This document shows positions 18,009 through 51,596 of a stretch of 64,000 nt of DNA, in pieces (the first letter of the stretch is position 1; the number at the start of each line of letters is the position of its first letter). Source of the DNA: Olivibacter jilunii (GTDB taxonomy: Bacteria > Bacteroidota > Bacteroidia > Sphingobacteriales > Sphingobacteriaceae); NCBI RefSeq assembly GCF_900607235.1, contig NZ_LR027850.1, positions 62,001 through 126,000 on the forward strand, given 5' to 3'. The position numbers and the translations under genes were made by a program. The notes beneath the pieces are model-generated. The model made no database searches. It had not been told where the DNA came from and worked only from the letters and a program-made list of their open reading frames with translations.

Positions 18009-18627
18009 GTTCTACGTTATAAGTTTTAAGTTATAAGTTTTAAGTTAGGGCTTTTGCTATTGCCAGTGCAACTAATAAGGCTGTAAGCTATAGGCGCTAA
18101 GCCGTAGGCGTTACCGAATACTGCTGCTGATCGGCTGTCAGAGGTCAGCGTCAGCTTTCAACCGCACATGGCCTATCCAGTTATAAGTTCTACGTTATAG
18201 GTTTTAAGTTAGGGTCTTAACGAGCTTTCAGTGATCAGCTATCAGTCGCACTAGCCCTTCTCATTATCACATTGGCTATTAAGCTATAGGCCATAAGCTA
18301 TAAGCCATAAGCTGTAGGCGTTACCGAATACTGCTGCTGATCGGCTATCAGAGGTCAGCTTTCAGCTTTCAGTCGCGCTAGCCCTTTTCATTATGACATT
18401 GACTATTAAGCTATAGGCCATAAGCTATAAGCTGTAGGCGTCACCGAATACAGCTGCTACTGCAACCATTTAACGACTCAACCATTCAACTACTTCTTAG
18501 CGACTCAACCATTTAACTACTCAACTATTCAACTTATTCTTAGCGACTCAACTATTTAACTACTCAACTATTTAACGGCTCAACTATTTAACTACTTCTT
18601 AACGACTCAACTATTCAACTACTTCCC
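18009..18627. repeat. Intergenic word-repeat array 1 (7-bp and 8-bp degenerate units)
   Basis: The first part (to about 18460) is made of consecutive heptamers. For example, 18283-18324 reads GCTATAG, GCCATAA, GCTATAA, then GCCATAA, GCTGTAG, GCGTTAC, with GTTATAA/GTTTTAA words at 18016-18050 and GCTTTCA/GTGATCA/GCTATCA words around 18224-18246. The second part (18472-18627) is made of octamers of the AACNAYTN type (AACGACTC, AACTATTT, AACTACTC). Larger duplications are superimposed: a segment around 18104 recurs 210 bases later, and a segment around 18243 recurs about 120-127 bases later. The array begins at the cstA stop codon and runs into the last codons of the convergent amidohydrolase gene. 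No protein-coding frame is seen. Confidence 0.85.
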
Positions 18628-19963
18628 TAGGCATCCATTGCCCTGCCTTCATTACCCCATCAATTTGATGGGTGTTTCTGATATCCGTTAATGGGTTTGC
18701 CTCTAAAATAAGTAAATCGGCCACTTTGCCTTTTTCGATGGTGCCATATTGCTTGTCGATGTGGAGGATTTTAGCGGCATTTTGCGTGGCAATGGAAATG
18801 GCTTCTAAGGGTGTTAAGCCCGCGCGTACAAGCAGTTCCAGTTCGCGATGTTCAGCATAACCTTGTACACGGGTCGGCGAGGCACCGGAATCGGTGCCTA
18901 ATCCCACCAGTATGCCTGCTTTTGCCATGCGCAATACGTTCGCCAGCGCATTTTTGAGGGCCAAGACTTTTCTTTCGTATTGTGGATCTTTTTTTACCTG
19001 GCTTTGGTAATCGGGGGCACTGAGCATTTCGTAGACACCCGGTTCCAATGCCTGTTTAAAGAATGGATCGTTCATCCATTCGGGATCCGAGGCATAGGCG
19101 ATAGCAAACTCATCGAGCGTGAGTGTTGGAATATAGGCCACTCGATTGGTTTTCATTTGGGTTAATAAATCGTCATCCACTAATTGATCGCGAATGCTAT
19201 GGCCAAGCACGTCGACACCATCGGCAACGAGTTGACGGGCGTCCTCCAGGTTGTACACATGCGCTACTACGGGAATACTGTGCTTATGAGCTTCTTGGAT
19301 GATGGCTTGGTATATAGAGCGGTCCATTTTTTTTGCGGTACCACCGAAATCGTCTACCCATATTTTGACAGCTTGAGGTTTATATTGCATTAATTGGTCC
19401 ATCAAGGCAGGTACTTCTGAAGCGTTTGTTGGCCGATAGAGTAGATCCATGGGCGAACCGGTGGGTACCGCTCCCGGAACATTGAAACCAATGCCCGCTG
19501 AAAACAGTCGCGCGCCGTCCAATTGCCCATTTTTGAGCGAATCGTATAGTTGATTTTCAAATAACAACGGTCGGTCGGTGCCCATAGAAAGGACCTGTAA
19601 GATGCCATATTGTTGATATTTTCGCAACTGGCGCAGTATGTTTCCCCGTGTAAAATTTTCCGCACTGGCTGATGTTCCTTTCAAGGTGCCGATATGTACA
19701 TGTGCACTGATAAAAGCAGGAAGAACTGTTTTTCCAGCGAGATTGATCACTTTTGCATCGCTTGTATCTAATTGGGAATCAATCGCAGCAATGAGGCCAT
19801 TGAAAATGGCTATATCGGCTTGACGGGGGGCCGCACCGGTTCCATCAATTACCAAGGCATCTTTTAATATTATTTTTGTGTCATCAGCGGTGTCAGCTTC
19901 TTGGCGAGAGGAAGAGCAGGCAAGGAAGAATAAAAGCAAAAGGAATAGCAATAATTTGTCCAT
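18611..19963 (-). CDS. Amidohydrolase-family lipoprotein (imidazolonepropionase-like)
   Basis: This 450-residue metal-dependent hydrolase has a lipobox LFFLACS (Cys16). The beta-sandwich (ILKDALVIDGTGAAPRQADI) is followed by the metal-binding HVH (His88, His90), a lysine-strand region (VKIWVDD), further ligands in PVVAHVYN and VLGHSI, and the catalytic aspartate in GLGTDSGASPTR. The tail IEKGKVADLLILEANPLTDI is typical. Related proteins are annotated as imidazolonepropionase-, prolidase- or carboxypeptidase-like, and the true substrate is unknown. It would face the periplasm or surface. Its final residues EVVE and stop codon are encoded by octamer words of the adjoining repeat array, so the 3' end seems to have been remodelled by the repeat. 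Confidence 0.87.
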   Translation of the reverse strand: MDKLLLFLLLLFFLACSSSRQEADTADDTKIILKDALVIDGTGAAPRQADIAIFNGLIAAIDSQLDTSDAKVINLAGKTVLPAFISAHVHIGTLKGTSASAENFTRGNILRQLRKYQQYGILQVLSMGTDRPLLFENQLYDSLKNGQLDGARLFSAGIGFNVPGAVPTGSPMDLLYRPTNASEVPALMDQLMQYKPQAVKIWVDDFGGTAKKMDRSIYQAIIQEAHKHSIPVVAHVYNLEDARQLVADGVDVLGHSIRDQLVDDDLLTQMKTNRVAYIPTLTLDEFAIAYASDPEWMNDPFFKQALEPGVYEMLSAPDYQSQVKKDPQYERKVLALKNALANVLRMAKAGILVGLGTDSGASPTRVQGYAEHRELELLVRAGLTPLEAISIATQNAAKILHIDKQYGTIEKGKVADLLILEANPLTDIRNTHQIDGVMKAGQWMPREVVE

Positions 19964-20036
19964 AGCTGTCTATATTGGGCGTTTAAAGTTAGCAATTTGT
20001 TTTTTTAACGTGCGGGGCAAATCACACATCGTACCA

Positions 20037-20068
20037 CTTGCATAACGTGCAGGGATTGCCTATGTTTG
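20037..20068 (+). promoter_or_regulatory. Bacteroidota-type promoter for the sigma factor gene
   Basis: CTTG (20037-20040) is followed after 20 bases by TATGTTTG (20061-20068), matching the TTG / TAnnTTTG arrangement of the housekeeping sigma factor of Bacteroidota. Transcription would start near 20075, giving an untranslated leader of about 107 bases before ATG 20182. Confidence 0.65.
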
Positions 20069-20181
20069 CCTCAATCCGTGTCTATGCATAAATTTATGCA
20101 AAGCCGAGTATAAACCCAAAAGCATTTTTAATATTAATTTAATATAAAAGACATCTTTTTTGGCTCATTTTGCCTGTTGAT

Positions 20182-20817
20182 ATGGATATCGAAAAGCTAA
20201 GCGAAACTCAGCATGCTGAAGGCGTTGGTTGCAAAGCCGGCCCTTCTGACACGGCCTTAGCGGATGCTATTCGGCAGGGAGATACGCGTGCTTTTCAGTT
20301 GTTCTATGATCGATTTTACCTGAGGCTACTGGTTCAGCTTAAATTGCTTTCGACTGATTTTCAGTTGGCGGAGGACATTTGTCAGGATGCATTTGTACGG
20401 CTTTGGGAAAAGCGCGAGTCGATCGATCCATCCAAATCACTACAGGCTTACCTGCGCAAGATAGCTCACCACCTTTTTATCGACCTAAAACGAAAACAAC
20501 AACTTCAACAGGTTTGGAATCAGGAAAGGGCTACGGAACCATGCTTGGAGGAAACGGTGCTTGAAAACCTTTATCATAAGGAACTGAACGATAAATTGCA
20601 AGAAGCCTTACAGTTATTGCCGGAGGAAAAGCAGCAAATTTTCCGGCTCAGCCGCGAACAACAGTTGAGCTATAAAGAAATCGCTCAGCTTGAAAATACT
20701 ACACCTAAAGCCATCGAACGTCATATGGCAAGAACAAATGCATTCTTAAAGCGCTACCTACGCGAGTATACTGACTTAGCTTACCTTTTCGTGGTCGGTC
20801 TTTTTCTAGGGAAATAA
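20182..20817 (+). CDS. ECF sigma factor with hydrophobic C-terminal tail
   Basis: This sigma-70 family protein is about 211 residues from ATG 20182; an in-frame TTG at 20170 could add four residues but is less likely. Region 2 includes FQLFYDRFYLRLLVQLKLL and EDICQDAFVRLWEKRESI. Region 4 includes LLPEEKQQIFRLSREQQLSY and YKEIAQLENTTPKAIERHM. The protein ends with a hydrophobic stretch (AYLFVVGLFLGK) that could touch the membrane. A FecR anti-sigma gene starts 62 bases downstream, followed by SusC with STN and SusD, the standard order of a trans-envelope signalling utilisation locus. It would direct transcription of the receptor genes when the anti-sigma factor is released. Confidence 0.92.
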   Translation: MDIEKLSETQHAEGVGCKAGPSDTALADAIRQGDTRAFQLFYDRFYLRLLVQLKLLSTDFQLAEDICQDAFVRLWEKRESIDPSKSLQAYLRKIAHHLFIDLKRKQQLQQVWNQERATEPCLEETVLENLYHKELNDKLQEALQLLPEEKQQIFRLSREQQLSYKEIAQLENTTPKAIERHMARTNAFLKRYLREYTDLAYLFVVGLFLGK

Positions 20818-20879
20818 AAAAAATTTAAAGGGAGAGGGGGATGTGAGCTCCTTGTTCGTATACACTTTATCATAAAGAC

Positions 20880-21881
20880 ATGAAGTATACGACACACCGA
20901 TATATCCATAAACTCTTAGCCGGCACCTTGCTGGAGGAAGAGCGGTTGGAATTGATTAATTGGTTTGATAACCTTTCAGCGGAAGAATCTCAGGCTTTTT
21001 TCGAAGAGCTGGGGCAATATATGGATCGTTTGGATGACGAGCAAGTAGCTCGTTTAGAGGATGTGTTGCAGCACCTGCGAGAACAATCCATCAGTACCGT
21101 GGCGGCAAGCAAATCGAGGAGCTTGTCCTTCTGGAAGGTGGCAGCCATCATCACTTTATTGCTTGTTGGAAGTGTGGTCTTGCTAAATTATTTGAACAAG
21201 AGAGAAGCCTTGTCTTCGGAATCCGCAAAGACATTGGTATGGAAGACAATAACGAATCCCGCCCGTACCCGCACCAAGCTGCGTTTGCCCGATAGTTCGT
21301 GGGTGTGGTTAAACGCAGGCAGTAAATTGGTATATCCGGAGCAATTTGATGATTCCGTTCGTTTAGTCAAGTTAATAGGAGAGGCTTTTTTTGAGATACA
21401 AGAAGATAACCAAAGACCCTTTTACGTGGAATCCTCAAGGCTAGTTACGCAAGTATTGGGAACCGCTTTTAATATGAAAGTTTTTGAGCATGAGCCTTTG
21501 GTGGTTACTGTACAGTCGGGCAAAGTGAAAGTAGCCGGTGAAAAGGAGGAGCGGGTATTGGCACCGAATCAACAAGTTGAGTACTTGGAAGGAATGGGTT
21601 TATCGGCGGTGAAAGCCGTAGACGCCTCGGTAAGCGCGAGCTGGCGAAATGGGGTGCTCAACTTAAATAATAAAACCCTTTGGCAGGCGACACGCGAAAT
21701 GGAGCGCTGGTATGGTGTAACGATCCGTATTGATAAAGAAAAATTAAAGAATTGCGTGATAGCCGGGGAGCATACCAATACCGGTTTATATAATGTGTTA
21801 AACTCGTTGGCTTTTGTCTTGAAGCTGCGGTATACAACTAACGGAAATGAAATCGTCATTACAGACGGAAAGTGTCCTTAA
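20880..21881 (+). CDS. FecR-family anti-sigma factor
   Basis: This 333-residue inner-membrane regulator has a cytoplasmic N-terminal domain (about 1-80) that should hold the neighbouring sigma factor and one membrane segment at about 86-105 (KVAAIITLLLVGSVVLLNYL). A periplasmic FecR domain lies at about 120-225 (RTKLRLPDSSWVWLNAGSKL, GEAFFEIQEDNQRPFYV). A C-terminal DUF4974-like domain lies at about 255-330 (LWQATREMERWYGVTIRID), the part that contacts the STN domain of the SusC receptor. It lies between its cognate sigma gene and its SusC, consistent with SusC-to-FecR-to-sigma signalling. Confidence 0.93.
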   Translation: MKYTTHRYIHKLLAGTLLEEERLELINWFDNLSAEESQAFFEELGQYMDRLDDEQVARLEDVLQHLREQSISTVAASKSRSLSFWKVAAIITLLLVGSVVLLNYLNKREALSSESAKTLVWKTITNPARTRTKLRLPDSSWVWLNAGSKLVYPEQFDDSVRLVKLIGEAFFEIQEDNQRPFYVESSRLVTQVLGTAFNMKVFEHEPLVVTVQSGKVKVAGEKEERVLAPNQQVEYLEGMGLSAVKAVDASVSASWRNGVLNLNNKTLWQATREMERWYGVTIRIDKEKLKNCVIAGEHTNTGLYNVLNSLAFVLKLRYTTNGNEIVITDGKCP

Positions 21882-21938
21882 TTGATCAACCTCAAAAATA
21901 ATAAAATGAAACCGACATAGCATAAAATACATAAAGAA

Positions 21939-21964
21939 GCGGGAACATCGGATAATGTTCCCGC
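21939..21964 (+). promoter_or_regulatory. Hairpin in the FecR-SusC spacer
   Basis: GCGGGAACAT (21939-21948) pairs perfectly with ATGTTCCCGC (21955-21964), leaving a six-base loop. No T-run follows, so a plain intrinsic terminator is unlikely. A comparable hairpin occupies the same place in the other FecR-SusC spacer (35629-35662). It could mark RNA processing or differential expression between regulator and receptor genes. Confidence 0.55.
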
Positions 21965-22047
21965 CGACGGCAGCTTAACAATACTTTGGCCGGTAAGAAA
22001 AGCTGCTACGGATTAACGAACTCAATATTCATTAAACACTCAAAATT

Positions 22048-25000
22048 ATGAAATTAATACTACAACAAGTAGTAATTAGGATAGTTATGCGTATCGCAAC
22101 CATTATTGCGTTTCTTATAATAAGCTTATCCTGTTCTTTTGCCACTACAGGAAAAGCACAGGGACTCGCAACGCTGACCGTTCACTTGGATATGAAACAG
22201 GCAACCGTTAAGCAAGTGCTCGAAGTGTTGGAGTCGAAAATAAACTATAAATTCTTATATCCAAAAGCCTTGGATAGTTATAAAAGTCCGGTTTCAATCT
22301 CCGGAACTTATGCGGTATCGGATATTTTGGTGGAGCTTGCGACCCAAACCGGATTGTCTTTCCGACAAATTAACCATACCATCGCCGTGTCGCTCAACAA
22401 TGTGAAGGCTAAGAGTGATGCGATAAAACAACTGCTGGTAAGCGGTCGTGTAACCGACTCCTTGGGAAACGCCTTACCGGGAGCCAGTGTGCTGGTGAAA
22501 GGCGGTGGCAAGGGTGCGAATACCGATAGTCAAGGGCATTATCGTATTCAGGCCGCTAAGGGTGATGTACTCTTGTTCTCTTATGTGGGCTATCGACAAT
22601 TGGAAGTGCCGGTAGAAGGAAAGCAAACGATCGATGTGCAATTGCATGAAGAAGGTGCCGCTTTGAGTGAAGTAGTAGTGGTTGGCTATGGTGTACAAAA
22701 GAAAGCCACAGTAACGGGAGCGGTTGCAACGGTTTCGGGGAAAGAGATCAATAAGGCGCCTACGACCCATGTAGCCAATACGCTGGCAGGACGTGTAGCG
22801 GGGATTACCGGACTGGAAAAGACTGGCGAACCGGGTTCTGGCGGAGCGCAACTGTTTATACGCGGACAAAGTACGCTGGGCGATAATAGCCCGCTATTAG
22901 TTGTCGACGGAGTACCGAGTTTATTGGGAGGACTTGACAAATTGGACCCGAATGACATTGAAACGGTATCGGTATTAAAAGATGCCTCCGCTTCGATTTA
23001 TGGTGCCAGAGCAGCGAACGGTGTTATCCTAGTAAAAACGAAACGTGGAATTGACGGAAAGCCGACGCTCGATTATAGCTTTAACCAGGGTTTTGTGACT
23101 CCAACGAGAATGCCCAAAATGGCTGATGCTCCGTTATACGCGCAACTGACCAATGAGATTCTTGAATATGCGGGGCAGCCTATTAAATTTTCGGCAGAAG
23201 ATATCCAGGAATTTGCCGATGGTTCTTCACCTTATACCCATCCGAACACGGATTGGATCGATGCGGTTATTAAACCGCTTTCCTTACAGAATCGACATAA
23301 TTTAGGGTTGCGCGGGGGATCGGAGAATATCAAGTACTTTGTTTCATTGGGCTCCCAATATGAAGATGCCGTGTACAGGAATAGTGCAACCAATTATAAG
23401 CAACAAAACTTACGGGTTAATTTGGATGCAAAGGTCAATGAATATATACAATTGAGCTTTGATTTGCAGGGTCGGCATACGAACCGAAATTATGCGCCGC
23501 GCGGAGCGGGCGATATTTTCCGGTTTATTCAACGTGGTCGACCAACGGAAACAGCCATTTGGCCAAACGGCCTCCCCGGGCCGGATATTGAAGGGGGTAA
23601 TAACCCCGTAGTGACATCCACAGAGGAAGCTGGGTATAACCACCATGTGATTAACCTCGGGAATGCGATTATTGGTTATAAAATCAAGATTCCGGGAGTT
23701 GAAGGCTTATTTGTGGATGGAACCTATGCAGCGAGTGTAGAGGTGCTGCACCGCAAAAATTTTGTAAAGCCTTGGACCTTGTATTCCTTTGGCGGTTTTG
23801 ACGAAAATAACGAGCCGAAGTTGGTCGCCGCCCAACGGGGTGTTAATTCGCCGGAACTGACCGAACGTTACGATCAGAATCAGCAGGTTCTTTTTAATAC
23901 AAAGATCAACTATGTACGCTCTTTCGGCAAGCATAGTCTGAATAGCTTTGTGGCATATGAGCAAAATGTGGATAAGGGAACCAACATTCTGGGCTATCGT
24001 CGGGACTTTATATCCCCGGTGGTTGACCAACTTTTTGCGGGAGGTCAGGACATGCGCAGGGTGGAAGGGTATGGCTATGAATTTGCCCGAAGAAATTATT
24101 TTGGTAGAGTATCCTATCAATACAATGATACCTATTTACTCGACCTTAATTTTCGGGTAGATGGTTCGCAGAACTTTCCCGCGGGGAAACGTTATGGTTT
24201 CTTTCCCGGGGTGTCAGCCGGTTGGGTCTTATCCAATGAATCTTTTTGGACCAAATATGCGAAAACAGTCAATTTCATGAAATTAAGGGCCTCTTATGGG
24301 CAAATGGGAAATGATAAAATCGATAATTTCCAGTTCTTAAGTAATTATGGTTTTGAGAAAAATAGTGTTCTCCAGGGAGCAATTTTCGGAGATAACCTAA
24401 CCTTCAATCCCGCAATTTATCCAGTGAGAGTGGCTAATCCCAATATTACCTGGGAGGTAGCCAATACCTTAAACGTCGGTTTGGAAGCTCAATTATGGAA
24501 TGGTCGTTTCGGACTGGAATTCGATTATTTCCGTGCAGATCGTGATAAAATTCTTATTCAGCGTGCGCAGTCAATACCACAGTATGCAGGGTTTTCCTTA
24601 CCTGACGAGAATTTAGGAAAAGTTCGTAACCAAGGTTTTGACGCGGTATTAAGCCATCGGAATACCTTCGGGAATTTACGAATGGACATCAGTGGCACCG
24701 TTTCCTTTGCGCGCAACAAGATTCTGTTTTGGGATGAATCCCAAAATATCCCGGCATACCAACAATATACCGGTTCTCGCATTGGATCCGGGCTCTATTA
24801 CCATGCCATCGGGGTATTCAAAAATGAAGAGGAGCTGGAAAATTATCCTCATTGGTCAGGTGCTCGCCCGGGAGATGTGATCTTTGAGGACTTTAACCGA
24901 GATGGCAAAATAGATGCGTTGGATCGTATCCGTTTTGAACCTTCTTTCCCCGAGTGGAATTTCGGATTGAATATTAATTTGCAATACAAAAACTTTGATC

Positions 25001-25425: not shown

Positions 25426-25435
25426 AAGCTAAATC

Positions 25436-27196: not shown

Positions 27197-27205
27197 TCCT
27201 AAAGA

Positions 27206-28420: not shown

Positions 28421-28448
28421 TCACATAGGGGATAAGCTCGAGTAAATT

Positions 28449-28482
28449 AAAAAGCCTTGGCTTAAGAGCCAAGGCTTTTTCG
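28449..28482 (+). terminator. Rho-independent terminator after first phosphoesterase
   Basis: AAGCCTTGGCT (28452-28462), a four-base loop and AGCCAAGGCTT (28467-28477) form a perfect 11-bp stem followed by a T-run. It closes the operon that starts at the sigma/FecR genes. Confidence 0.9.
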
Positions 28483-28507
28483 TGGGAATCGGTCTGATAA
28501 CTTAATA

Positions 28508-28536: not shown

Positions 28537-28568
28537 CATTGCAACCTGATTTTATTCAGCTTACATTT

Positions 28569-32821: not shown

Positions 32822-33715
32822 TTACTTGTGGGATTTATCTATTTCGCGAAAAGCCGAAGGCGTTATTCCTGTTTGGGTTTTAAAAAAGTTGGAGAAATAA
32901 GCGTGATCTACGAAACCCAGTTCGAAAGCAATTTCTTTAATGGAAAGGCTTGTGCTTTGTAGCATTCTTTTTGCTTCGATACATACTCGTTGCTGTATGA
33001 GCTGTGTTGCTGAAACTTTTAGATTTTTTTTACAAAGGATATTCAGATAATTGGGTGAAATATGTAGCTGTTCTGCATAGAAAGTCACTAGCTTCTGCTC
33101 TTTGAAAAATTCATCTATTAAGGTGTTGAATTTAGCTAGCCGGGGATTGGATTGATAAACCTTGAACTCGGTGAACGTGCCTTCTGCTTCTCTACTAACA
33201 ATTGCGGCAATGACTGCAGCGCGAGCGCTGATCAGATGTACGAGTGAACGATCATTCTTTAATTCATGCTTGATAGCATCAAACTCATATAATAATAATT
33301 GGAAGGCCTCATCAGTCAATTGAATAACAGGGTGATTTTGGTAGTTGGTAAAGGAAAACCTGAAATAGGGAGCAAATTGCTCGAAAAATGAACGTTCGAT
33401 CATCAGTTGATATCCGGTGGTTCCTGTTTCGATATCCCATTTATGCATCTGGCCCGGAAATAAAACGTGTATTTGATGGTTGCCGATTTGATAATCTATC
33501 GAATCAATATTGTGTGTTCCCTGTGCTTGATCAAAGAGGATGATAATAAAAAAGTCGTGTTTATGAGGCTTCTCGATTAGCCGTTTACCATGAAGTTCAT
33601 TGAATATGATTTCCTCACGACCGGCAATCTGTCCTTTTCGAAACCCATGGATTCCGATAATGGGTATTGTATGATCCTCTTTATAGGTAGGCATAAGGTA
33701 AATATAGTGAATCAT
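32822..33715 (-). CDS. AraC-family transcriptional regulator
   Basis: This 297-residue protein has an N-terminal cupin sensor (about 35-160; KPHKHDFFIIILFDQAQGTH, NHQIHVLFPGQMHKWDIE). A C-terminal AraC double helix-turn-helix lies at about 200-292 (FYAEQLHISPNYLNILCKKN, IKEIAFELGFVDHAYFSNFF, TPSAFREI). It lies 91 bases upstream of the amidohydrolase gene on the same strand and is its likely regulator. A start at internal MPTYKEDHT (residue 8) is also possible. Confidence 0.92.
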   Translation of the reverse strand: MIHYIYLMPTYKEDHTIPIIGIHGFRKGQIAGREEIIFNELHGKRLIEKPHKHDFFIIILFDQAQGTHNIDSIDYQIGNHQIHVLFPGQMHKWDIETGTTGYQLMIERSFFEQFAPYFRFSFTNYQNHPVIQLTDEAFQLLLYEFDAIKHELKNDRSLVHLISARAAVIAAIVSREAEGTFTEFKVYQSNPRLAKFNTLIDEFFKEQKLVTFYAEQLHISPNYLNILCKKNLKVSATQLIQQRVCIEAKRMLQSTSLSIKEIAFELGFVDHAYFSNFFKTQTGITPSAFREIDKSHK

Positions 33716-33775
33716 GAATGTTTTTTAATTTCATCCTATTATTTTCTTTTGGTTGATGAGAGCTCGAGTAAATAA

Positions 33776-34412
33776 CCGAAGCGGCAGCGAAGCTCATTGA
33801 CACCTGAAAATGTAAACACTTGTCAATAATAATTGCCCTGTGTGTACAGACAGTTGCACTAGTACAAGCTCCTGCTTAAAACGTATAACTTAGCACTTAT
33901 AACTAAAAAGCTATCAGCAGTCAGCTTTCAGCCATCAGCTTTAATAATATATTATTACAGTGGCACGAGTAGTTACAATAGCATAGGCCCTTACTTAATT
34001 ACGTATAACTTAGCACTCTTAAGCCTTAAACGGACACTGGTAGCAGGACATGGGTAGCAGGACAAGTCATTACAGTTGCACAAGCACTAGTACAAGCTCC
34101 TGCTTAAAACGTATAACTTAGCACTTATAACTAAAAAGCTATCAGCAGTCAGCTTTCAGCTATCAGCTTTAATAATGTATTATTACAGTGGAACGAGTAG
34201 TTACAATAGCACAGGCCCTTACTTAATTACGTATAACTTAGCACTTATAACCGGCATAGGCTATGTACGACCCATCGCTGACCGAAAGCTAATTCCTAAT
34301 AACTAACAACTAACAACCAATAACCAACAACTAACAACCAACAACTAACAACCAATAACCAACAACTAACAACCAATAACTAACAACTAATAACCAATAC
34401 CTAATAATTAAC
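33776..34412. repeat. Intergenic word-repeat array 2 with 162-bp direct duplication
   Basis: A segment at 33856-34017 recurs at 34084-34245 (offset 228) with only a few differences. Inside each copy run heptamers such as GCTATCA, GCAGTCA, GCTTTCA, GCCATCA (33910-33937). From 34301 to 34412 the sequence is a clean run of 16 heptamers of the form AAYYAAY with two minor deviations (AACTAAC, AACCAAT, AACCAAC). No coding frame is visible. The array separates the minus-strand AraC block from the FecR gene and uses the same kind of words as the arrays at 18009 and 50488. Confidence 0.85.
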
Positions 34413-34508
34413 ATCCCAAAACTATTTTTATTCAAAAAAAAGCAAAAGCATGAGTAGATTTTGCTTTTTGATGTCTATATAGTTTTAGAGACAGCGCTTG
34501 AACGCCAC

Positions 34509-35579
34509 ATGCAACATTATAGACATTATAAAACGGTCGATTTTTTAACTGATGACAATTTTGCTGACTGGGTGAGGTTTCCGCGGCCGGATAGCGACCG
34601 GCACTGGCAAGAAGTTTTTGTTCTTTTTCCGGCACTTGTTCCCTTTGCAGAAGAAGCGCGACAGATGTTGTTGCATATGCAGATAAAGCCAATAAACGGG
34701 GGAACGGACGACTTACAAAAAAATATTCTAGATAAAGCCTTTGATGCCGACAATGTTACAACGAAAAAAATAGGCGCCCTGCAAGGAAAGCTCTATAAAT
34801 GGGGTGCTGCGGCACTGATCGTCCTTGTGTCCGGACTTATATTGTGGAAGGGATTAGTTACCCGTTCGACCAAATTGGAAGTGGTTATTGCAAAAGATGG
34901 AGGCGTAAAGCGAGTGAAGAATTCGGCAGATATGGCCTTACTGGTTCAACTTCCGGATCAGTCTACCGTTATCTTGCAACCAAAGTCGCAACTAAGCTAT
35001 CAGGTCGACTCCTTTGCTGTTAAAAGAGCGGTGTACCTAACGGGAGAGGCATTCTTTGATATTACTAAAAATGAACAGCAACCTTTTGTCGTTAATACGG
35101 ATCAATTGAGCACAGTGGTTTTGGGAACGAGTTTTTTCATAGATGCTAAACCAGGCGTAGCAGACCATCATGTGGTAGTAACGAGCGGCTCTGTCCGTGT
35201 CAAGGAACGAATACACCGGGCTAAATCGAGACCCGATGAATCCGATGGATTGCTATTAAAAGCGGGCGAAGAAACGCGAACGCAAGGGGATCATTCACTC
35301 GTTGCTATACCTTCACGAGAAGCTTTACACATGCAGGATGATTTTGAAAAAGCCTTTGATTTTCAAAATATATCAATGGATAGGGTGGCTAAAATCATAC
35401 AGGAATATTATGGTGTGCCTGTGCGGATTGAAAGCCAAGTTTTGACGAATCGAACGATTACGGCTTTTTTAGGAAAGGTTTCTTTGCAGGAGAAGCTCGA
35501 CTTAATTGCCAAAGCTGTTGAAGCGCGGTATCAATTGGAAGACGGTATGGTCATATTTACTTTAAAAAACCAACAATAA
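34509..35579 (+). CDS. FecR-family anti-sigma factor
   Basis: From ATG 34509 the product is 356 residues; an in-frame TTG at 34461 would add 16 atypical residues. It has a cytoplasmic N-terminal region, one membrane segment at about 97-114 (WGAAALIVLVSGLILW), a FecR domain at about 130-230 (VQLPDQSTVILQPKSQLSYQ, GEAFFDITKNEQQPFVV) and a C-terminal DUF4974-like domain (MDRVAKIIQEYYGVPVRIES). It should hold an ECF sigma factor and be released by the STN-type SusC encoded next. Its sigma gene is not adjacent; the candidate at 30028 lies 3.9 kb upstream on the same strand. Confidence 0.92.
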   Translation: MQHYRHYKTVDFLTDDNFADWVRFPRPDSDRHWQEVFVLFPALVPFAEEARQMLLHMQIKPINGGTDDLQKNILDKAFDADNVTTKKIGALQGKLYKWGAAALIVLVSGLILWKGLVTRSTKLEVVIAKDGGVKRVKNSADMALLVQLPDQSTVILQPKSQLSYQVDSFAVKRAVYLTGEAFFDITKNEQQPFVVNTDQLSTVVLGTSFFIDAKPGVADHHVVVTSGSVRVKERIHRAKSRPDESDGLLLKAGEETRTQGDHSLVAIPSREALHMQDDFEKAFDFQNISMDRVAKIIQEYYGVPVRIESQVLTNRTITAFLGKVSLQEKLDLIAKAVEARYQLEDGMVIFTLKNQQ

Positions 35580-44338: not shown

Positions 44339-44348
44339 TTGTTGACTG

Positions 44349-45812
44349 ATGAAACTAAAACCGTATATCAAAACATTGGCTATTGTATCCTTCTTAGGGA
44401 TGAGCGCCTGTACAAAGGACTTTGAAGAAATTAATACCGATCCTAATAAGTTGGAGGTGGTATCACCAGGTAGTATGCTTACCCCCGTTATCTACAACAT
44501 GAGCACTTATTTTACCGAGCAGAGCTACAACTTTGATTGGCAGATGATGCAGGTATGCATTCCCCATCCAAGCGTTTCTAATGGGATTCACCGTTATGAC
44601 TTGAATGAAAATTCAGGAAATGGAACTTGGAATACGTGTTATAAGTGGATGGCCAATATTAGGGAGATGGAAACTGCAGCCGACAATTACAATTTACCTG
44701 TCTACAGAGCTGTAGCGGCTACCTTAAAGGCCTATATAATGGGGATTCTCACCGACAGTTTCGGAGATGTCCCTTTTTCTGAGGCAATGAAGGCCGCTGA
44801 AGGTATCAGTCAACCACGCTTTGATACACAACAGGAAATTTATGAAAACCTTATTGCACAATTAGAAGAGGCGAACACCATTTATGCGACAGATGACTCC
44901 AAGATGTTTGGAGAGGATCTGCTTTATAGTAACGATAAGACGAAGTGGCAGCGCTTTAATAACTCCTTGTTGATGCGTTTATTGCTGCGCATGTCTAAAA
45001 GAACGGAAATGAATAGCTATGAACGGTTGCAAACAATAATCGATAATCCGGATCAATATCCGGTGTTCACAAGTAATGCTGAAGCTGCCTTTGTAACCAT
45101 TACAGGAAATTCCCCTTATGATTATGCCTGGGGCAGAAGGCAGGATTATGCCAATGCTAAGGCTATGGCATCCTTCTTTGTCGATTTACTAAATGCACAA
45201 GAAGATCCGAGGCGTAGCTTGTTTATGACAGGAGCGAGCCGTTTAGAAGGGGGTAAGCCTGTCGATATCGGTTATAAAGGCGTACCGGCGGCGCATTCAG
45301 GGGATGCCTCACAATTCAATTTCAATCCAAGTCAGCCGAATGCCGACCTCATGGTTTATACCACTTTGGGGACGGAGATTGTTGAAGTGATGATGAGTTA
45401 TGCCGAGGTGGAGCTTATTAAAGCGGAAGTAGCTTTGGAACGAGGAGATTTAAATGCGGCAAAAGCAGCTTACGAAAAAGGTGTTGCTGCAGGGATCACC
45501 CAGTGGAAAAATGGTGTTATGCCCCAAGGCTATCTAAACCATCCCGTGGTAGCATTCAATGGAACGATGAAGCAGTTGATGGAACAAAAGTATATTGCTC
45601 TATTTTATAATGATTATCAGCAGTGGTTTGAGTATAGGCGAACCGGTTACCCGGAACTTCCGAAAACAGAGTATATGCTACATGATGGTGTCATGCCAAC
45701 CCGTTTCATGTATCCAACAGAAATCCGCAGATCAAATCCAACGAATTACCAGGAAGCGGCTAATCGGATCGGTGGTGATGATATCATGACGAAAGTTTGG
45801 TGGGATAGATAA
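44349..45812 (+). CDS. SusD-like type 2 surface lipoprotein
   Basis: This 487-residue lipoprotein has lipobox GMSACTKDF followed by FEEINTDPNKLEVVSPG, the NTDPN beginning of the SusD-like type 2 group. Further signatures are ATLKAYIMGILTDSFGDVPF, MSYAEVELIKAEVALERG and QWFEYRRTGYPEL. Together with the SusD at 6796 it forms the type paired with STN-less SusC receptors in this window. No enzyme is linked; a terminator follows 18 bases after the stop. Confidence 0.93.
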   Translation: MKLKPYIKTLAIVSFLGMSACTKDFEEINTDPNKLEVVSPGSMLTPVIYNMSTYFTEQSYNFDWQMMQVCIPHPSVSNGIHRYDLNENSGNGTWNTCYKWMANIREMETAADNYNLPVYRAVAATLKAYIMGILTDSFGDVPFSEAMKAAEGISQPRFDTQQEIYENLIAQLEEANTIYATDDSKMFGEDLLYSNDKTKWQRFNNSLLMRLLLRMSKRTEMNSYERLQTIIDNPDQYPVFTSNAEAAFVTITGNSPYDYAWGRRQDYANAKAMASFFVDLLNAQEDPRRSLFMTGASRLEGGKPVDIGYKGVPAAHSGDASQFNFNPSQPNADLMVYTTLGTEIVEVMMSYAEVELIKAEVALERGDLNAAKAAYEKGVAAGITQWKNGVMPQGYLNHPVVAFNGTMKQLMEQKYIALFYNDYQQWFEYRRTGYPELPKTEYMLHDGVMPTRFMYPTEIRRSNPTNYQEAANRIGGDDIMTKVWWDR

Positions 45813-45830
45813 AAAATAACTGATCGTATC

Positions 45831-45881
45831 AAAACAAAGGCGAGGCCCTAATCACTACGTTAGCGCCTCGCCTTTGTTTTA
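45831..45881 (+). terminator. Rho-independent terminator after SusD
   Basis: AAAACAAAGGCGAGGC (45831-45846) pairs with GCCTCGCCTTTGTTTT (45865-45880), a perfect 16-bp stem with an 18-base loop. The A/T-rich base makes it usable in both directions, so it may also stop transcription of the small minus-strand gene next to it. Confidence 0.9.
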
Positions 45882-45889
45882 TAGCTCTT

Positions 45890-46063
45890 TTATTGTCTTT
45901 CCTGTGAACGCCGATTATCGACGGGTACTTTATAGTATACCTCGCCGTCATCGTTCAATGCATTCAGTGATTTCACGAGGCTATCGACTTCGGTAGCCAA
46001 TACGTTTTCCATCACCAGCGTCACGACCCCATGATGACGCATGAAAATGTTAAATAACATCAT
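45890..46063 (-). CDS. Small hypothetical protein, 57 residues
   Basis: An open frame from ATG 46063-46061 to TAA 45892-45890 encodes 57 residues with a protein-like composition: a hydrophobic start (MMLFNIFMRHHGVVTLVMEN), an acidic helix-like middle (ATEVDSLVKSLNALNDDGEV) and a basic C-terminus (RRSQERQ). A TACCTTTG promoter element on the same strand at 46183-46176 and the two-sided terminator just after the stop support expression. I recognise no family. The next ATG (second codon) is an equally good start. Confidence 0.5.
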   Translation of the reverse strand: MMLFNIFMRHHGVVTLVMENVLATEVDSLVKSLNALNDDGEVYYKVPVDNRRSQERQ

Positions 46064-46175
46064 GTTAACTTATTTATACACACAACGCACAGTGGGGATT
46101 CTTGTTACTTGGTAAGATTCTGTATCACAAAGCTTTTATGTCATTGAAAGAACCCCTCCCTATAGGTTTTAGAAT

Positions 46176-46183
46176 CAAAGGTA
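46176..46183 (-). promoter_or_regulatory. Possible -7 element for the small gene
   Basis: TACCTTTG on the minus strand fits TAnnTTTG; no clear -33 TTG at standard distance was found. A palindrome ATTTCGAAAT lies just upstream at 46191-46200. Confidence 0.35.
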
Positions 46184-46261
46184 GCGGATAATTTCGAAAT
46201 ACGAAATACCTACAAATTAGGAAATAGAAAGTTGTGCCGATTATGGTCGGCAATATGAAGG

Positions 46262-46332
46262 TTAGTGAATTTTCAAAGCGATGATCATAGGGCCATGATC
46301 ACCGCCGTTGTTCAGGTATTCTTGGTTAAATA
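46262..46332 (-). pseudogene. Possible C-terminal gene fragment
   Basis: A short minus-strand frame without start codon, beginning inside the end of the CpsB-like gene, reads LFNQEYLNNGGDHGPMIIAL and ends KIH-stop. The GGDHGPMIIALKI composition looks like the C-terminal strand of an enzyme rather than random sequence. No upstream continuation exists (a TAA precedes it). It may be debris of a lost gene; chance is not excluded. Confidence 0.25.
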
Positions 46333-47003
46333 ATTTCTTTGTTTTTTATGCAAGCTGACTGCAACTGTTTCATTAATTTCTTTGAATGAAAAAGCTCGTT
46401 GATCATTTGTTGATCATCGGTATTCCGTGCACCTGATCCTACAAAACTTACACGTTCTTCTTTAAATAATTTCTGTGCTACACGCTTTGCGTCGACCCCA
46501 TTAGATCCAGCTAAGGAAAGTAAATCACTTTCATACAGGCATCCTTGCAAGTGAAGGCGTGTTATATTCCGATAGTTATCTTGCAAGCAGGCGTATTGCT
46601 CTGTCTTAGCCAGTACCGGTTGCAGGCCTTTACCGGTGAGATAAGCGACAACATCTTCCAGATCGCGGCTTAAAATATCTGCCGGTGCCTCTAGCAGTAC
46701 ATAATTTTTTCCAAAAGTCTCTAATTTTTCTTGTTGAAGAAGGGCTCCGTCCGTATCCAAACGATAAAGCCTAATTGAATGTATTGGCAAGGCGCTGTTA
46801 AACGTTTTAGCATCTATAGCATCCTGACTCACAGCTCCGAAGATGCAAGCATAGCCAGCGTTTTTCAGTTCTTCGGTTACATCAGTGCTATTGAAATAGC
46901 CGAAACTTGGTTTCAGTAAATCAATATGTATATCGGCAGCGAGTATGCTTCCAACCCTATTGCCTGTATACGTTGCTGATTGAGTTGGTAAAATTGAAAA
47001 CAT
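46326..47003 (-). CDS. CpsB/YwqE-like PHP-family phosphatase homologue, active site degenerate
   Basis: From the internal start MFSILPTQS (47003) the product is 225 residues; an upstream in-frame ATG at 47075 adds 24 residues of doubtful origin. The pattern follows the CpsB/CapC tyrosine-phosphatase family: an N-terminal ADIHIDLL where the family has DxHSHLLPGIDDG, then NYVLLEAPADI, LTGKGLQPVLAKTEQY, LLSLAGSNGVDAKRVAQKLF and VSFVGSGARN. The metal-binding histidine and aspartate of the usual HPERY and GTDxHN motifs are replaced (KTEQY, GSGARN), and the first HxH pair is broken. It is therefore probably inactive, perhaps a regulatory pseudo-enzyme of exopolysaccharide synthesis. It lies 2 kb from the initiating sugar transferase. 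Confidence 0.65.
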   Translation of the reverse strand: MFSILPTQSATYTGNRVGSILAADIHIDLLKPSFGYFNSTDVTEELKNAGYACIFGAVSQDAIDAKTFNSALPIHSIRLYRLDTDGALLQQEKLETFGKNYVLLEAPADILSRDLEDVVAYLTGKGLQPVLAKTEQYACLQDNYRNITRLHLQGCLYESDLLSLAGSNGVDAKRVAQKLFKEERVSFVGSGARNTDDQQMINELFHSKKLMKQLQSACIKNKEII

Positions 47004-47152
47004 CCTTATATAATTTATACAATACTTGTGATATAATGTATAAATATAATCGTATTTGCTCAACTCGTTTCGCAAGTGTTTTCGTTTTGTGTCTAAATGA
47101 CGTATTTCTGTGTGTAAACTGATGGATATTTGTTCAGTTTGTTAGGAATATG

Positions 47153-47848
47153 CTAAACAATCAATAAATTTGATTTGATATCCGCAAAGTAAGTCCGACC
47201 TATCGGTATACCGGTGCCATCTTTCAGCTTTAGTTCCAATTGGTTAAAAGAATGAATATGAGAACGATTGACGAGGTACGACTTATGTACGCGTAAAAAA
47301 GGGTGTCCTGCCGGTAATTTAGCTTCGAATTCCTTTAAATTTTTTCGAAGGGCTACTCGTCTGGTGCCAATCTGCAATTCCACATAATTACCATTTGCCT
47401 TGATAAAAACTAAGTCCTTTAACGATACGTGATGTTTATTTCGACCCATAGGTAGAAACAAGCTTGGTTCGTCTGTTTTTTGAAAATGACTCATGGCAAT
47501 CTCGATGGCAGCATATAAGTCAATCTTGGTAAAAGGTTTGATAAGGTAACCGTAAGGCCGTGTATCTTTTGCGTTTTCGATCGTGGCGGGTTCCGCGTGT
47601 GAGGTCGTAAAAATGAACGGTATACCCTTAATGCGTAACACGCGAGCCACATCAATACCGCTTCGTGCACTGCGTATGCCAATGTCTAAAAGCACGAGAT
47701 CCGGCGTTTTTTCTTTTACGAAGCTTAATGCTTCCTCGTAATCAGCCGCTATACCACATACGGTGTAACCAACTTCTTCGAGCATTTCCTGCATGTCCAA
47801 TGCAATGATCATCTCGTCTTCAACTATAAGAATTCGTAAATTTTGCAT
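47153..47848 (-). CDS. LytTR-type response regulator
   Basis: This 231-residue cytoplasmic protein has a receiver domain (about 4-120; acidic pocket VEDE, phosphoacceptor Asp55 in LVLLDIGIR, conserved lysine in YLIKPF). A LytTR DNA-binding domain lies at about 138-230 (VFIKANGNYVELQIGTRRVA, FLRVHKSYLVNRSHIHSFNQ). Its ATG follows the kinase stop with no spacing (TAGATG), so the two are translationally coupled. It would bind direct repeats near target promoters; exopolysaccharide genes on the opposite strand are candidate targets. Confidence 0.94.
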   Translation of the reverse strand: MQNLRILIVEDEMIIALDMQEMLEEVGYTVCGIAADYEEALSFVKEKTPDLVLLDIGIRSARSGIDVARVLRIKGIPFIFTTSHAEPATIENAKDTRPYGYLIKPFTKIDLYAAIEIAMSHFQKTDEPSLFLPMGRNKHHVSLKDLVFIKANGNYVELQIGTRRVALRKNLKEFEAKLPAGHPFLRVHKSYLVNRSHIHSFNQLELKLKDGTGIPIGRTYFADIKSNLLIV

Positions 47849-48712
47849 CTATGTACTTCTGAAATTAATTTTAAAAATGGAGGCTTCGTTAAATTCGTAA
47901 TGGATCGTTCCCTGTAGTTGTTTTGTAAGGTTGGTTAGCAGGCGTAGGCCCATGGTACCTGTTTGTTCCCAATTGATGCCCGAAGAAATGCCCGGGCCGT
48001 TGTCACTGTAATACAAACGATAGTACCCTGCTTCTGTGGGCGTAACCTGGATGGTTACTTGTAGGTGTTCATCTTCTTGTCTCGCATATTTAATTGAATT
48101 GGTAATCAGTTCGGTAATCAGTAAACCATACGGTATGATAACATCAGTTTTTACTTTAGCCGCACAGATATTGATTTTTTTTTGTATTTGTTCTTGTCCG
48201 CTATAACTCTTTACGATGTAATGGACTAAATCTTTCGTATAATTTGCTAAATCAATGGTGTCATGCAAATTGTCAGTGTATAGCTTTTGGTGCACTAAAA
48301 GCATCGATTGAAGTCGCACGGCGCTATCGTGAAGGGCTTTTTTTACTTCGGGGTGCTTACTTGTACGTATGTGCATGTTCAATAAAGAGGACGCAAACTG
48401 TAGATTATTCTTGACGCGATGATGTGTCTCGTTTATGAACAGCTCGTGCGATTCTGTTTTGTTGCGCAAAGCCTGATAACGTTCGTCCAACTCAGCATAT
48501 TCTCGCTTTAGCCTGTGAATACGTTGTCTATTTTTGTGCCGGCTAATAAAAAAGATACTCACAACGGTGAGAACAATGCCAAGGATACCGAAAAAGCCGG
48601 CGTCCAAAAGTGCAAACATACCCTTCATTCGCATGGGAATAGGCTTTTTAGGAATATCACTGATTAAAAATGGTATCACAATATCTCTTTCTTTTAGACG
48701 TGAAAAAAGCAA
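47849..48712 (-). CDS. Sensor histidine kinase of the HisKA_2 type
   Basis: This 287-residue protein has one membrane segment at about 36-57 (LLDAGFFGILGIVLTVVSIF), a short coiled-coil-like linker and the HisKA_2 phospho-acceptor block NETHHRVKNNLQFASSLLN (His97/His98). The ATPase domain shows VIPYGLLITELITNSIKYA (N-box) and YYSDNGPGIS and TMGLRLLTNL (G-boxes). There is no extracytoplasmic sensor domain, so it probably senses the membrane or a cytoplasmic partner. The start could also be an internal methionine at residue 27 or 29. The partner regulator is encoded immediately downstream. Confidence 0.92.
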   Translation of the reverse strand: MLFSRLKERDIVIPFLISDIPKKPIPMRMKGMFALLDAGFFGILGIVLTVVSIFFISRHKNRQRIHRLKREYAELDERYQALRNKTESHELFINETHHRVKNNLQFASSLLNMHIRTSKHPEVKKALHDSAVRLQSMLLVHQKLYTDNLHDTIDLANYTKDLVHYIVKSYSGQEQIQKKINICAAKVKTDVIIPYGLLITELITNSIKYARQEDEHLQVTIQVTPTEAGYYRLYYSDNGPGISSGINWEQTGTMGLRLLTNLTKQLQGTIHYEFNEASIFKINFRST

Positions 48713-49066
48713 AATTCTCTTAGTGGTAAAGAACGTATTGCCTGTTTGCTGAGTATCTTATTTGCAAATTCGCTATTAAATATTAAAAATCATGCCAATA
48801 TTTTTAATTTTCCACTCGATTTCTTTTTAAAAAATGTAAAAATGTCTTGTTGCGTTTAAAATCGCTTTTTCTTGCTGATATTAAATTTATATTAATTGTG
48901 TTAACTCTATGTTTTTGTGCATTTAAGTTGGTTTTTTTCACGATTTTATGAAAAATATGTATGCAATATGGCCTTTTCTTGAATTTTATTTACCGGTATG
49001 ATGTTTGTTGAGCGCATTTCACAGGAATAAACATTTTTGTTAAATTTTTCTCGTAATTTCCCTTTT
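48713..49066. other. Divergent AT-rich region before the exopolysaccharide genes
   Basis: This 354-base spacer lies between the histidine kinase gene and the initiating sugar transferase gene, which point away from each other, so it must hold both promoters. It is very AT-rich with many T-runs. Several TTTG strings occur, but none has both boxes at standard spacing. No coding sequence or repeat array is seen. Confidence 0.4.
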
Positions 49067-50482
49067 ATGGATTTAAGCAGCCGTTACCTCTTTCATTTTA
49101 CACACGTAGTTACCGATTTTTTCTTTATTATCCTTTCCTTTTTACTTGCTGTTCGATTTAGTAACTACGAGTATTTTTATCAGCTGAGCCTTTATGATGC
49201 GGGATTTCTACTTTTTTTGCTTTGTGGGTGGTACTTTACCGCTCGTTCCAATCGATTATATGAAGATAAGATCCAGGAAAACCAGATGCGTGAGCTGTTT
49301 AAAACAGCTAATACGATTTTATGGCAGGTGATGTTGGTGGTTTTGTTCATTTTTGCTGTAAAGGAAAATGACTATTCGCGAACTTTTGTTGTGATCTATG
49401 GCTGTCTGGTTGCTTTCTTCATACCTTTCAGTAAGATTCTGCTTAAGAAGATCTATTTGATGGTATTTCGCCATGGCTACTTACGCCGTCGTGCACTCGT
49501 GATCGGAGGAGGAGAGCATGGTCAGCAATTTTGCAGGTATATCAAAGAAAATAAGTATTACGGCTATGAAGTGGTGCGCCATATTCAGGGCGCCTTGACT
49601 TTTTCCCAGCCAGCCCAAAGCTTTGGAGAGCGTATGTTGATGGTGGGAGGGCAACCCTTAGGGGATATCAATGACATTGATGAGGTGTTTATTGCAGATG
49701 GTCCGGAAACCTCTTATAATACGAAAGAAATCGCTTCTGCCTTAAGTGCCCACGCGGTAAGACTTCGCATTATTCCGGATGTCTTTCAAATGAGTAACTC
49801 GGGGATGTATACTTTTAGCATGATTGGCGGTTTTCCGTTGTTAAGCGTACGGAATGAGCCATTGGAAGATATTTATAATCGGGCGGCAAAAAGAGCCTTT
49901 GATATTTTCTTTAGTTTGTTTGTGCTCGTCTTTGTATGCTCCTGGCTGTTTCCTCTTATCGCCATTCTCATTAAATTGGGATCGGAAGGCCCCGTGTTTT
50001 ACAAACAAGAACGCTGGGGTAAACGCAACCGACCTTTTCTCTGTTATAAATTCAGATCAATGTATGTGAAGGCGCCTGATACCAATCAGGCCGGTAAATT
50101 TCAACAGGCGCAAAAGAACGATCCCCGGATTACGCCGATCGGGCGTTTCCTTCGTAAAACGAGCTTAGATGAATTTCCACAATTCCTAAATGTACTTTGG
50201 GGCGAAATGTCGGTGGTAGGACCTCGCCCGCACGCTTCGCTGATGAATGTCGAATCTACCTATATTGTAAAAAACTACCTGGTAAGGCATCAGGCCAAAC
50301 CCGGTATTACGGGATGGGCTCAAGTGAACGGACTACGCGGAGAATCCGGAAATCCGAATCTATTAAAAGCGCGGATTGAACATGATATCTGGTATATCGA
50401 ACACTGGACTTTTTTGCTTGATTTGAAAATTATTTTCTTAACCTTCTGGCGAATGATTATCGGCGATAAGCAAGCTTATTGA
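49067..50482 (+). CDS. Undecaprenyl-phosphate glucose phosphotransferase (WcaJ-like)
   Basis: From ATG 49067 the product is 471 residues; the in-frame TTG at 49037 is less likely. Four N-terminal membrane segments and a nucleotide-binding-like CoA_binding_3 domain ([20 protein letters not shown]) precede a fifth membrane helix. The C-terminal bacterial sugar transferase domain ([76 protein letters not shown]) follows. It would start repeat-unit assembly by transferring sugar-1-phosphate to undecaprenyl phosphate at the inner membrane. A 210-bp repeat array separates it from the rest of the cluster. Confidence 0.94.
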
Positions 50483-50487
50483 TTATT

Positions 50488-51330
50488 GAACAAGGGAGCT
50501 TGTTAGTAGGCGATAGGCTTTAAGCAATAAGCTATAGGCGATGAGTGGTGAGTGATGAGTGATGAGTGATGAGTAATAAGCTATAAGGCTTGTACTGCTG
50601 TTATTCATCACTTACAACGCGCAATTACACTAACTACTGAACGACTTAACTATTTAACGACTCAACTACTGAACGACTCAACTACTCCCTAACTAGTGAA
50701 CAAGGGAGCTTGTTAGTAGGCGATAGGCTGTAAGCAATAAGCTATAGGCGATGAGTGGCGAGTGATGAGTGATGAATGATGAGTAATAAGCTATAAGGCT
50801 TGTACTGCTGCTATTCATCACTTACAACGCGCAATTACACTAACTACTGAACGACTTAACTATTTAACGACTCAACTACTGAACGATTCAACTACTCCCT
50901 AATTAGTGAACAAGGGAGCTTGTTAGTAGACGATAAGCTTTAAGCAATAAGCTGTAGGCGATGAGTGGCGAGTGATGAGTGATGAATGATGAGTAATAAG
51001 CTATAAGGCTTGTACTGCTGCTATTCATCACTTACAACGCGCAATTACACTAACTACTGAACGACTTAACTATTTAACGACTCAACTACTGAACGACTCA
51101 ACTACTCCCTAACTAGTGAACAAGGGAGCTTGTTAGTAGGCGATAGGCTGTAAGCAATAAGCTATAGGCGATGAGTGGCGAGTGATGAGTTATGAATGAT
51201 GAGTAATAAGCTATAAGGCTTGTACTGCTGCTGCTATTCATCACTTACAAGTAGCAATTACACTAACTACTGAACGACTTAACTATTTAACGACTCAACT
51301 ACTGAACGACTCAACTACCCCCTATTACGT
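50488..51330. repeat. Word-repeat array 3: four tandem copies of a 210-bp unit
   Basis: Copies begin at 50488, 50698, 50908 and 51118 with GAACAAGGGAGCTTGTTAG (itself a small hairpin) and differ at only a few bases; the fourth has a three-base insertion. Each unit contains a run of 11 heptamers (first copy 50510-50586: GCGATAG, GCTTTAA, then GCAATAA, GCTATAG, and several GTGATGA). A further inverted repeat is formed by GTGATGAAT and ATTCATCAC. Seven octamers of the AACNAYTN type follow (first copy 50632-50687). Heptamer-like words continue to about 51352 (ACTTAAA, ACTTACA). No coding frame is visible. The array starts five bases after the transferase stop codon. Confidence 0.93.
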
Positions 51331-51596
51331 AAAACATAGGACTTAAAACTTACAACTCACAAACCGTGATTCCTCATACTCATAATTGAACCATTGGTAC
51401 ACATTTGTATGATTATATTTCGTTGATTGTGTTGCTTTTATCCATATTTGCCTTTGGAAAATAAAGATTTTTTATTTTAGGATCAAGGTATTCGCCAATT
51501 ACACCTGATATCATCTGTACGTTAAAAAATGTTAAAACTCATTGTTTTATACAAAAATATCTAGTGTTAGGTATATATATGAAAAAGATTATTATG

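Follow-up and report, generated by a model that had tools for sequence, protein, structure and literature searches.

Outward orientation of the GT-rich strand in intergenic heptamer and octamer arrays of Olivibacter

Arrays of short tandem words between genes have been described in several groups of bacteria. Heptamers of the forms GGGAATC and GGGGA(C/T)T occur in Xanthomonas and Nostoc, where, according to the available part of the study, the G-rich strand points away from the nearer open reading frame whatever its direction, and G-quadruplexes were considered as the basis of this rule (PMC4692102). TAACTGA arrays are reported, in the accessible text, from Beggiatoaceae, Cyanobacteria and five Bacteroidetes, in part together with other heptamer direct repeats (MacGregor 2015, PMC4679880), heptamer satellites have been named in other bacteria in what is available of a further study (PMC6749651), and slippage has been proposed for heptamers by Mrazek, as related in the accessible parts of the papers cited here. 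Here, we analyse a 64,000-nucleotide stretch of an Olivibacter genome (Sphingobacteriaceae; C3:62001-126000 of G000, 6.70 Mb in 21 contigs), hereafter called the window, in which three intergenic regions are indeed made largely of 7- and 8-bp words, as a first-pass annotation of the sequence had claimed. The kinship with cyanobacterial heptanucleotide repeats that it suggested is apt as well: the STRR heptamers of heterocystous cyanobacteria reportedly are degenerate 7-bp tandem arrays between genes, which is also what is seen in Olivibacter. The 2015 PLoS One study on the GGGAATC repeats is said to have Rehm as its first author.

The main regularity of the Olivibacter arrays is that the GT-rich strand of their words points away from genes, at both gene ends. 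We call the word strand GTTRTTR/GTTRAGTR the GT-form and its complement the AC-form. When the first and last oriented arrays of each G000 intergenic region were compared, the order was GT-AC in 21 of 31 regions (10 tandem, 6 convergent, 5 divergent), GT-GT in 7 and AC-AC in 3, and AC-GT was not found. Array clusters within 300 bp, which are independent of gene calls and cover G000, its congeners G063 and G015 and five further genomes including other genera, gave 44 GT-AC orders, 1 AC-GT, 6 GT-GT and 11 AC-AC (p=2.6e-12 for 44:1); this count, like the G000 order tally, includes duplicated regions such as the related copies in L096. Where arrays adjoin genes of at least 450 bp, 73 of 84 stops and 38 of 45 starts in the pooled Sphingobacteriaceae sets have the GT strand pointing outward; weakly strand-asymmetric arrays were excluded from the order and adjacency counts. 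In regions with a single array, 12 mid-placed arrays being set aside, the GT-form lay nearer the left gene 34 times and the right gene 9 times, and the AC-form 11 and 24 times, respectively; in convergent regions, 19 single arrays were outward and 1 inward. Array placement relative to stop codons, which had been put forward as a check, is strongly biased. The earlier claim that the words always stand in the same strand orientation did not survive: both strands are used genome-wide (102/123 for AACTAACAACTAACAAC, 216/220 for the heptamer form and 238/306 for the octamer pattern), and the regularity is GT-rich left and AC-rich right within an intergenic region.

The arrays themselves are genuine and not a product of chance. 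In 714 G000 intergenic regions, from a 1.264-Mb sample that takes in the window and C2:500001-900000, period 7, the unit length of STRR, was detected in 48 regions against a mean of 0.8 in dinucleotide-preserving shuffles (22 of 35 bases identical at the given lag), yet period 8 also stands out, with 27 regions against 1.2. Harmonics at 14, 16, 21, 24 and 28 are likewise raised, small excesses over shuffles exist at periods 10 (9 vs 1.2), 11 (10 vs 1.6), 13 (5 vs 1.2), 22 (5 vs 1.0) and 30 (4 vs 0.0), and the remaining periods in these regions are near chance. The enrichment over shuffled intergenic DNA for which a genome-wide check had been proposed was found, and shuffling did not reproduce it. 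The incidence figure is based on the contiguous 800 kb of C1:1-800000 alone (some other stretches and 2-kb pieces had been picked with array matches known). There, a 19-of-28 test called a period-7 or period-8 array in 54 of 439 intergenic regions, approximately one in eight, and five shuffles of the same regions gave only 0-1 arrays per period. Period 7 was present in 35 of these 439 regions (82.5 kb) compared with 5 of 680 genes (717 kb; genes are longest-ORF calls made in this analysis), and period 8 in 3 of the 680 genes. Under the definition of bacterial long simple-sequence repeats with units of 1-11 nt (PMC4679880), i.e. tandem short units beyond chance, the arrays belong to this class, with degenerate units. 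Rapid change of copy number through slippage has been proposed for such repeats; the differences observed here are those between species. Many of the arrays lie at the edges of genes.

The words are shared far beyond the window. With up to 2 mismatches, AACTAACAACTAACAAC occurs at 225 places genome-wide and its reversed control at 11, and the octamer pattern at 544 places against 29, so that the recurrence of the same words in distant arrays, first noted for the window, applies to the whole genome. The profile of 160 aligned heptamer arrays, several other word types included, approximates GTTRTTR, and that of 60 aligned octamer arrays GTTRAGTR; the formula AACNAYTN proposed for the octamers fits, the fuller profile being GTTRAGTR and its complement.

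Compared with the GGGAATC/GGGGAYT repeats, as far as the available text of PMC4692102 describes them, the Olivibacter arrays obey the same outward rule, mostly occupy the same intergenic places in related species, where they vary in length and sequence, and are rarer between divergent genes (array-bearing regions: divergent 22/237, convergent 33/209, tandem 91/751). They differ in that their words are GT/AC-rich, octamers occur alongside heptamers and many regions are two-armed. A three-tetrad quadruplex motif was found in none of 220 arrays, and a two-tetrad motif in 17 of the 220, compared with 5 in shuffles. With the TAACTGA repeats, the arrays share intergenic heptamers that in some genomes are mixed with related heptamers, and TAACTGA, reversed to the other strand and rotated, becomes GTTATCA, which fits the Olivibacter word grammar. 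In the accessible text of PMC4679880, TAACTGA repeats of the main genome run to two to six copies and mostly stand immediately ahead of start codons, and arrays of up to 43 copies are given for several Bacteroidetes and Cyanobacteria; octamers, present in Olivibacter, are not seen there. The main words of G000 do not include the exact TAACTGA, and AACTGAT-type arrays exist in G015, where long AACTGAT/CACTGAT arrays of the TAACTGA type lie in L267 (C58:5900-7900). Hence, of the former statement that Bacteroidota have no described equivalent, the part on heptamer arrays falls with the TAACTGA report (PMC4679880), and the part on mixed 7/8-bp words stands as far as the available text of that report goes. 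A search that most subscription papers lay outside returned no literature that treats mixed 7/8-bp words or describes such arrays from Sphingobacteriaceae, so absence from print is not established.

Many regions have two arms, which raises the question of pairing. Among 26 GT-then-AC array pairs, a heptamer GT arm is followed by an octamer AC arm in 13, both arms are heptamers in 9, both octamers in 2, and an octamer precedes a heptamer in 2; the GT-AC order also holds for arms of unlike period, heptamer against octamer. As a separate observation, the heptamer-left/octamer-right arrangement exceeds its mirror image by 13 to 2 on the contig plus strands (four of the 13 being copies of the third window array), where strand symmetry predicts equality. 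Two arms could pair into RNA hairpins that act like terminators or stabilisers at the ends of genes, with the word grammar kept by pairing, an explanation that we regard as unlikely. It agrees with the long hairpins into which several convergent regions fold (L107, L126 and L097 among them), and with the better folding of 102 array regions (mean z -1.84) compared with 130 sampled other intergenic regions (-1.17; p=0.012); convergent array regions reach -2.66 against -1.83 for other convergent regions. Furthermore, by eye, L129:8432-8552 and its G063 counterpart L484 use different words, yet at both sites the two arms match each other. However, complementarity between the arms of one region was hardly above that of arms taken from different regions in the 26 pairs, and in 117 regions self-pairing was 9.44 compared with 8.72 (sd 0.34) after permutation, a value reached in 119 of 5000 permutations; non-array regions have a similar self-pairing excess (8.21 vs 7.24). 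Hairpin co-evolution of the arms, suggested by the folds and by L129/L484, received no overall support from these two tests. Moreover, folding is missing from the 8 divergent array regions (mean z -0.37), the 44:1 ratio stays unexplained because a hairpin can form whichever arm comes first, and an AC-rich 3' arm makes a poor intrinsic terminator.

A second possible function concerns transcripts that enter a gene from outside. By the outward rule, these would meet AC-rich, G-poor RNA at both gene ends, at which Rho could load and stop antisense or read-through transcription. The composition is in line with this, as C exceeds G on the inward strand: over the 30 bp that follow stops, the outward GC skew is 0.448 in array regions compared with 0.040 in other regions, and 0.181 compared with 0.075 at starts. 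These values also led us to reject a background intergenic skew as the source of the polarity. Nevertheless, pyrimidine-C steps are few in heptamers of the AACTAAC kind, and the Nostoc arrays follow the same rule though cyanobacteria, to our knowledge, lack Rho; we consider such a Rho-loading boundary very unlikely. With respect to codon content, start codons amount to 7.2-7.3 per 100 positions in the GT-form, 0.6-0.9 in the AC-form and 4.5 in all intergenic DNA. Stop codons in all frames gave no consistent rule that would point to a function, with 9.8 and 9.8 per 100 on the two strands of the heptamer forms, while the octamer strands differ (17.1 and 6.5). A seeding of arrays in register from the stop codon was not supported, because words meet the stop in a phase that varies over all columns; TAG stops are mildly commoner next to arrays (32/73 vs 262/907, p=0.011).

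The polarity could also stem from the way the repeats are made. If they were written outward from DNA ends or gaps, by 3'-end extension on both sides and subsequent joining, comparable to two telomere ends fused head to head, the 44:1 order would follow whatever the gene directions, and the arms would need to share neither period nor words, consistent with the common facing of heptamer and octamer arms and with the weak complementarity within regions. After removal of the arrays, the residual length is close to that of ordinary intergenic DNA (medians of 62 vs 78 bp in convergent and 65 vs 93 bp in tandem regions, array-bearing vs other; 274.5 vs 206 bp in divergent ones), so that the arrays are mostly added DNA, as outward writing would have it. 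At the two-armed, 249-bp site L170:18146-18394, 283 bp lie between the aligned flanks in G000 and only approximately 35 bp in G015, which fits too. On the other hand, arrays stand at the same sites in related species, unlike random break scars, and the enzymes sought do not follow their distribution. An origin by RVT_1 reverse transcriptases was not supported, as the domain has no match in the array-bearing G015 and most matches (7) in the array-poor G052, and Ku, found in all five same-genus genomes regardless of array load and missing from three array-bearing genomes of genus g21, is uninformative within the genus. The geometry is best matched by repeats being made outward from gene edges or DNA ends, although RVT_1, RAYT and Ku do not track the arrays, and we assign outward writing a low probability overall. 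It appears quite unlikely, too, that the outward rule of the GT-rich words in Bacteroidota and of the G-tract words in Xanthomonas and Nostoc reflects one common process, at work in several phyla, that adds 7-8-base repeats outward from the borders of genes or from DNA ends and needs neither quadruplexes nor a set transcription direction, RVT_1 or RAYT. Mobile REP-like palindromes moved by a RAYT transposase, with arms later decayed into words, are extremely unlikely. The arrays do resemble REP/RAYT elements, commonly defined as dispersed intergenic inverted sequences, in being dispersed, intergenic and built of two inverted arms, but they have no fixed palindrome, the arms are not specific inverted copies, and Y1_Tnp (PF01797) had no match in G000, G063, G015 and G052; its lack in the first three, where no RAYT was matched, largely refutes this origin.

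The comparison of shared sites shows that array positions often persist between related species while the words mostly change. Bulk stretches provided only 12 orthologous gene pairs, none with arrays, and the comparison therefore used synteny searches and 13 short stretches. Seven G000 array sites were set against G015 and/or G063; when each stretch was scanned loosely over its full length, with no shuffle control, 9 of the 13 stretches contained an array and 4 did not. The relatives' words at these sites are mostly other than those of G000; in L474 they are nearly the same. At the stop codon of the CstA gene, Olivibacter sp. XZL3 carries heptamers of other words (GTTRYCA, GCYTAMR), and the array-poor G052, as judged by eye, just a short TTACGTTCTACGTC stretch. 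By eye as well, the tandem site L115:11434-11542 begins with the GT-form and ends with the AC-form in all three species.

The occurrence of arrays among relatives is patchy. Heptamer-form matches within the genus (reversed control in brackets) number 436 (164) in G000, 206 (36) in G063 and 72 (13) in G015, and 2 (0) in G037 and 0 (1) in the array-poor G052; period 7 was found in 5 of 215 sampled regions of G063 and in 0 of 215 of G052. In the family, the heptamer pattern is present in 40 and the octamer pattern in 16 of 121 genomes, low counts often being equalled by the reversed control, and a related heptamer pattern with at most 1 mismatch is found in 38 of 247 genomes of the phylum. In 79 other CstA loci, mostly of Chryseobacterium and with runs of N included, period-7/8 regions were no commoner than in shuffles; by eye, only the Pedobacter locus L090 has such words.

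Within the window, all arrays are given on the forward strand. The first begins right after the stop codon of the CstA carbon starvation gene (16167..18008, +, PF02554; closest protein among the named loci listed, Olivibacter sp. XZL3, L011, 93%) with a GT-rich heptamer arm (GTTATAA/GTTTTAA, 18009..18056), followed by further heptamer blocks with GTTATAA, GCTATAA and GCTTTCA words (18176..18444), in or near which lie imperfect duplications of 86-89% identity, and by an AC-rich octamer arm of the AACTATTC type (18463..18625), which extends to the 3' end of a convergent amidohydrolase gene (18611..19963, -, PF01979). The second lies between a divergent AraC-type regulator gene (32822..33715, -, PF12833) and a FecR gene (34461..35579, +, PF04773). 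Its block with CTTATAAC and GCTATCA words (33856..34245) contains a 162-bp sequence twice, at 33856-34017 and 34084-34245, with 97.5% identity, and an AC-rich heptamer arm (AACTAAC/AACCAAT, 34281..34415) follows upstream of the FecR gene. The third, to the right of a sugar transferase gene (49037..50482, +, PF02397), consists of four tandem copies of approximately 210 bp (50487..51324), every copy carrying a heptamer arm rich in GT and an octamer arm rich in AC, and a terminal heptamer block (ACTTAAAACTTACAAC, 51323..51365). In copy 1, the heptamer arm (50505..50593) holds the 11 consecutive heptamers already noted by the first-pass annotation, a run of related words that we place at 50512-50588, and the octamer arm (AACTACTG/AACGACTC) spans 50630..50695. 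Rfam had no match to a known structured RNA in the window at gathering thresholds. Separately, positions 33722-33845, upstream of the divergent AraC/FecR pair, hold a sequence of approximately 100-124 bp with 80-93% identical copies elsewhere in G063 and G052 and one further copy in the G000 sample (L223, 88% over 120 bp), besides partial matches of lesser length; a small dispersed element is one possibility, a shared regulatory region another. Elsewhere in G000, a unit of approximately 362 bp with octamer and heptamer arms is tandemly repeated in L096 (7548-8322, near C1:107500-108300). A GC-rich palindrome of the type CCTGCCTACCGGCAGGCAGG stands within several array regions (L206 13146-13514, L170 18146-18394, L210 11319-11532, L268); of the 101 own stretches covered by a simple pattern search, 12 gave 35 matches in all.

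Taken as a whole, we tentatively favour, at somewhat less than an even chance, the reading that the arrays are slippage-made degenerate hepta- and octanucleotide simple repeats, tolerated at gene edges and filtered by selection for their orientation. Strand slippage in DNA synthesis, the likeliest maker of the arrays, would make and renew them, mainly gene edges and intergenic positions would tolerate them, and selection would act on the orientation of each array. Slippage with turnover fits the periodicity, the duplication steps and the change of words, and the higher-order duplications (the fourfold unit of approximately 210 bp and the 162-bp block) fit slippage or unequal exchange; the polarity does not follow from slippage. 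At gene starts, the orientation that is kept would result in an AC-rich leader nearly free of start codons, and the removal of start codons from the leader is a plausible selective reason. Several points weigh against this reading. Slippage alone predicts neither the orientation rule nor the sharing of words between distant arrays. The GU-rich trailer that the kept orientation would produce on the stop side has no convincing selective reason, and start-codon avoidance leaves both the outward orientation at 73 of 84 stops and the 19 to 1 excess among convergent single arrays unexplained. Divergent G000 regions keep the GT-AC order too (5 GT-AC and 0 AC-GT, with 3 GT-GT and 1 AC-AC), and single arrays in tandem regions follow the rule less strictly (30 outward, 16 inward). 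Moreover, clusters in G015 are mostly AC-AC (4 of 6), and on contigs from a viral collection (80 of 88 stretches analysed in one set, 80 of 104 in the other) the rule is weak for AACTAAC (4 GT-AC, 1 AC-GT and 2 AC-AC; 9 outward and 4 inward at starts, 3 and 4 at stops) and absent for TAACTGA (1 AC-GT; 13 outward and 5 inward at stops, 6 and 9 at starts). Hence, the outward rule is not claimed for all heptamer arrays.

In the scattered bacteria where heptamer arrays have been noted, their function is not settled. An outward orientation is already published for G-rich repeats; here it is seen in words without three-tetrad quadruplex motifs, which weakens the G-quadruplex explanation of the orientation. 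Whether the orientation is set by selection acting on RNA at the borders of genes or by the making of the repeats thereby becomes a testable question, and the two-armed regions with heptamers facing octamers, together with the changed words at kept positions, provide clear experimental handles.

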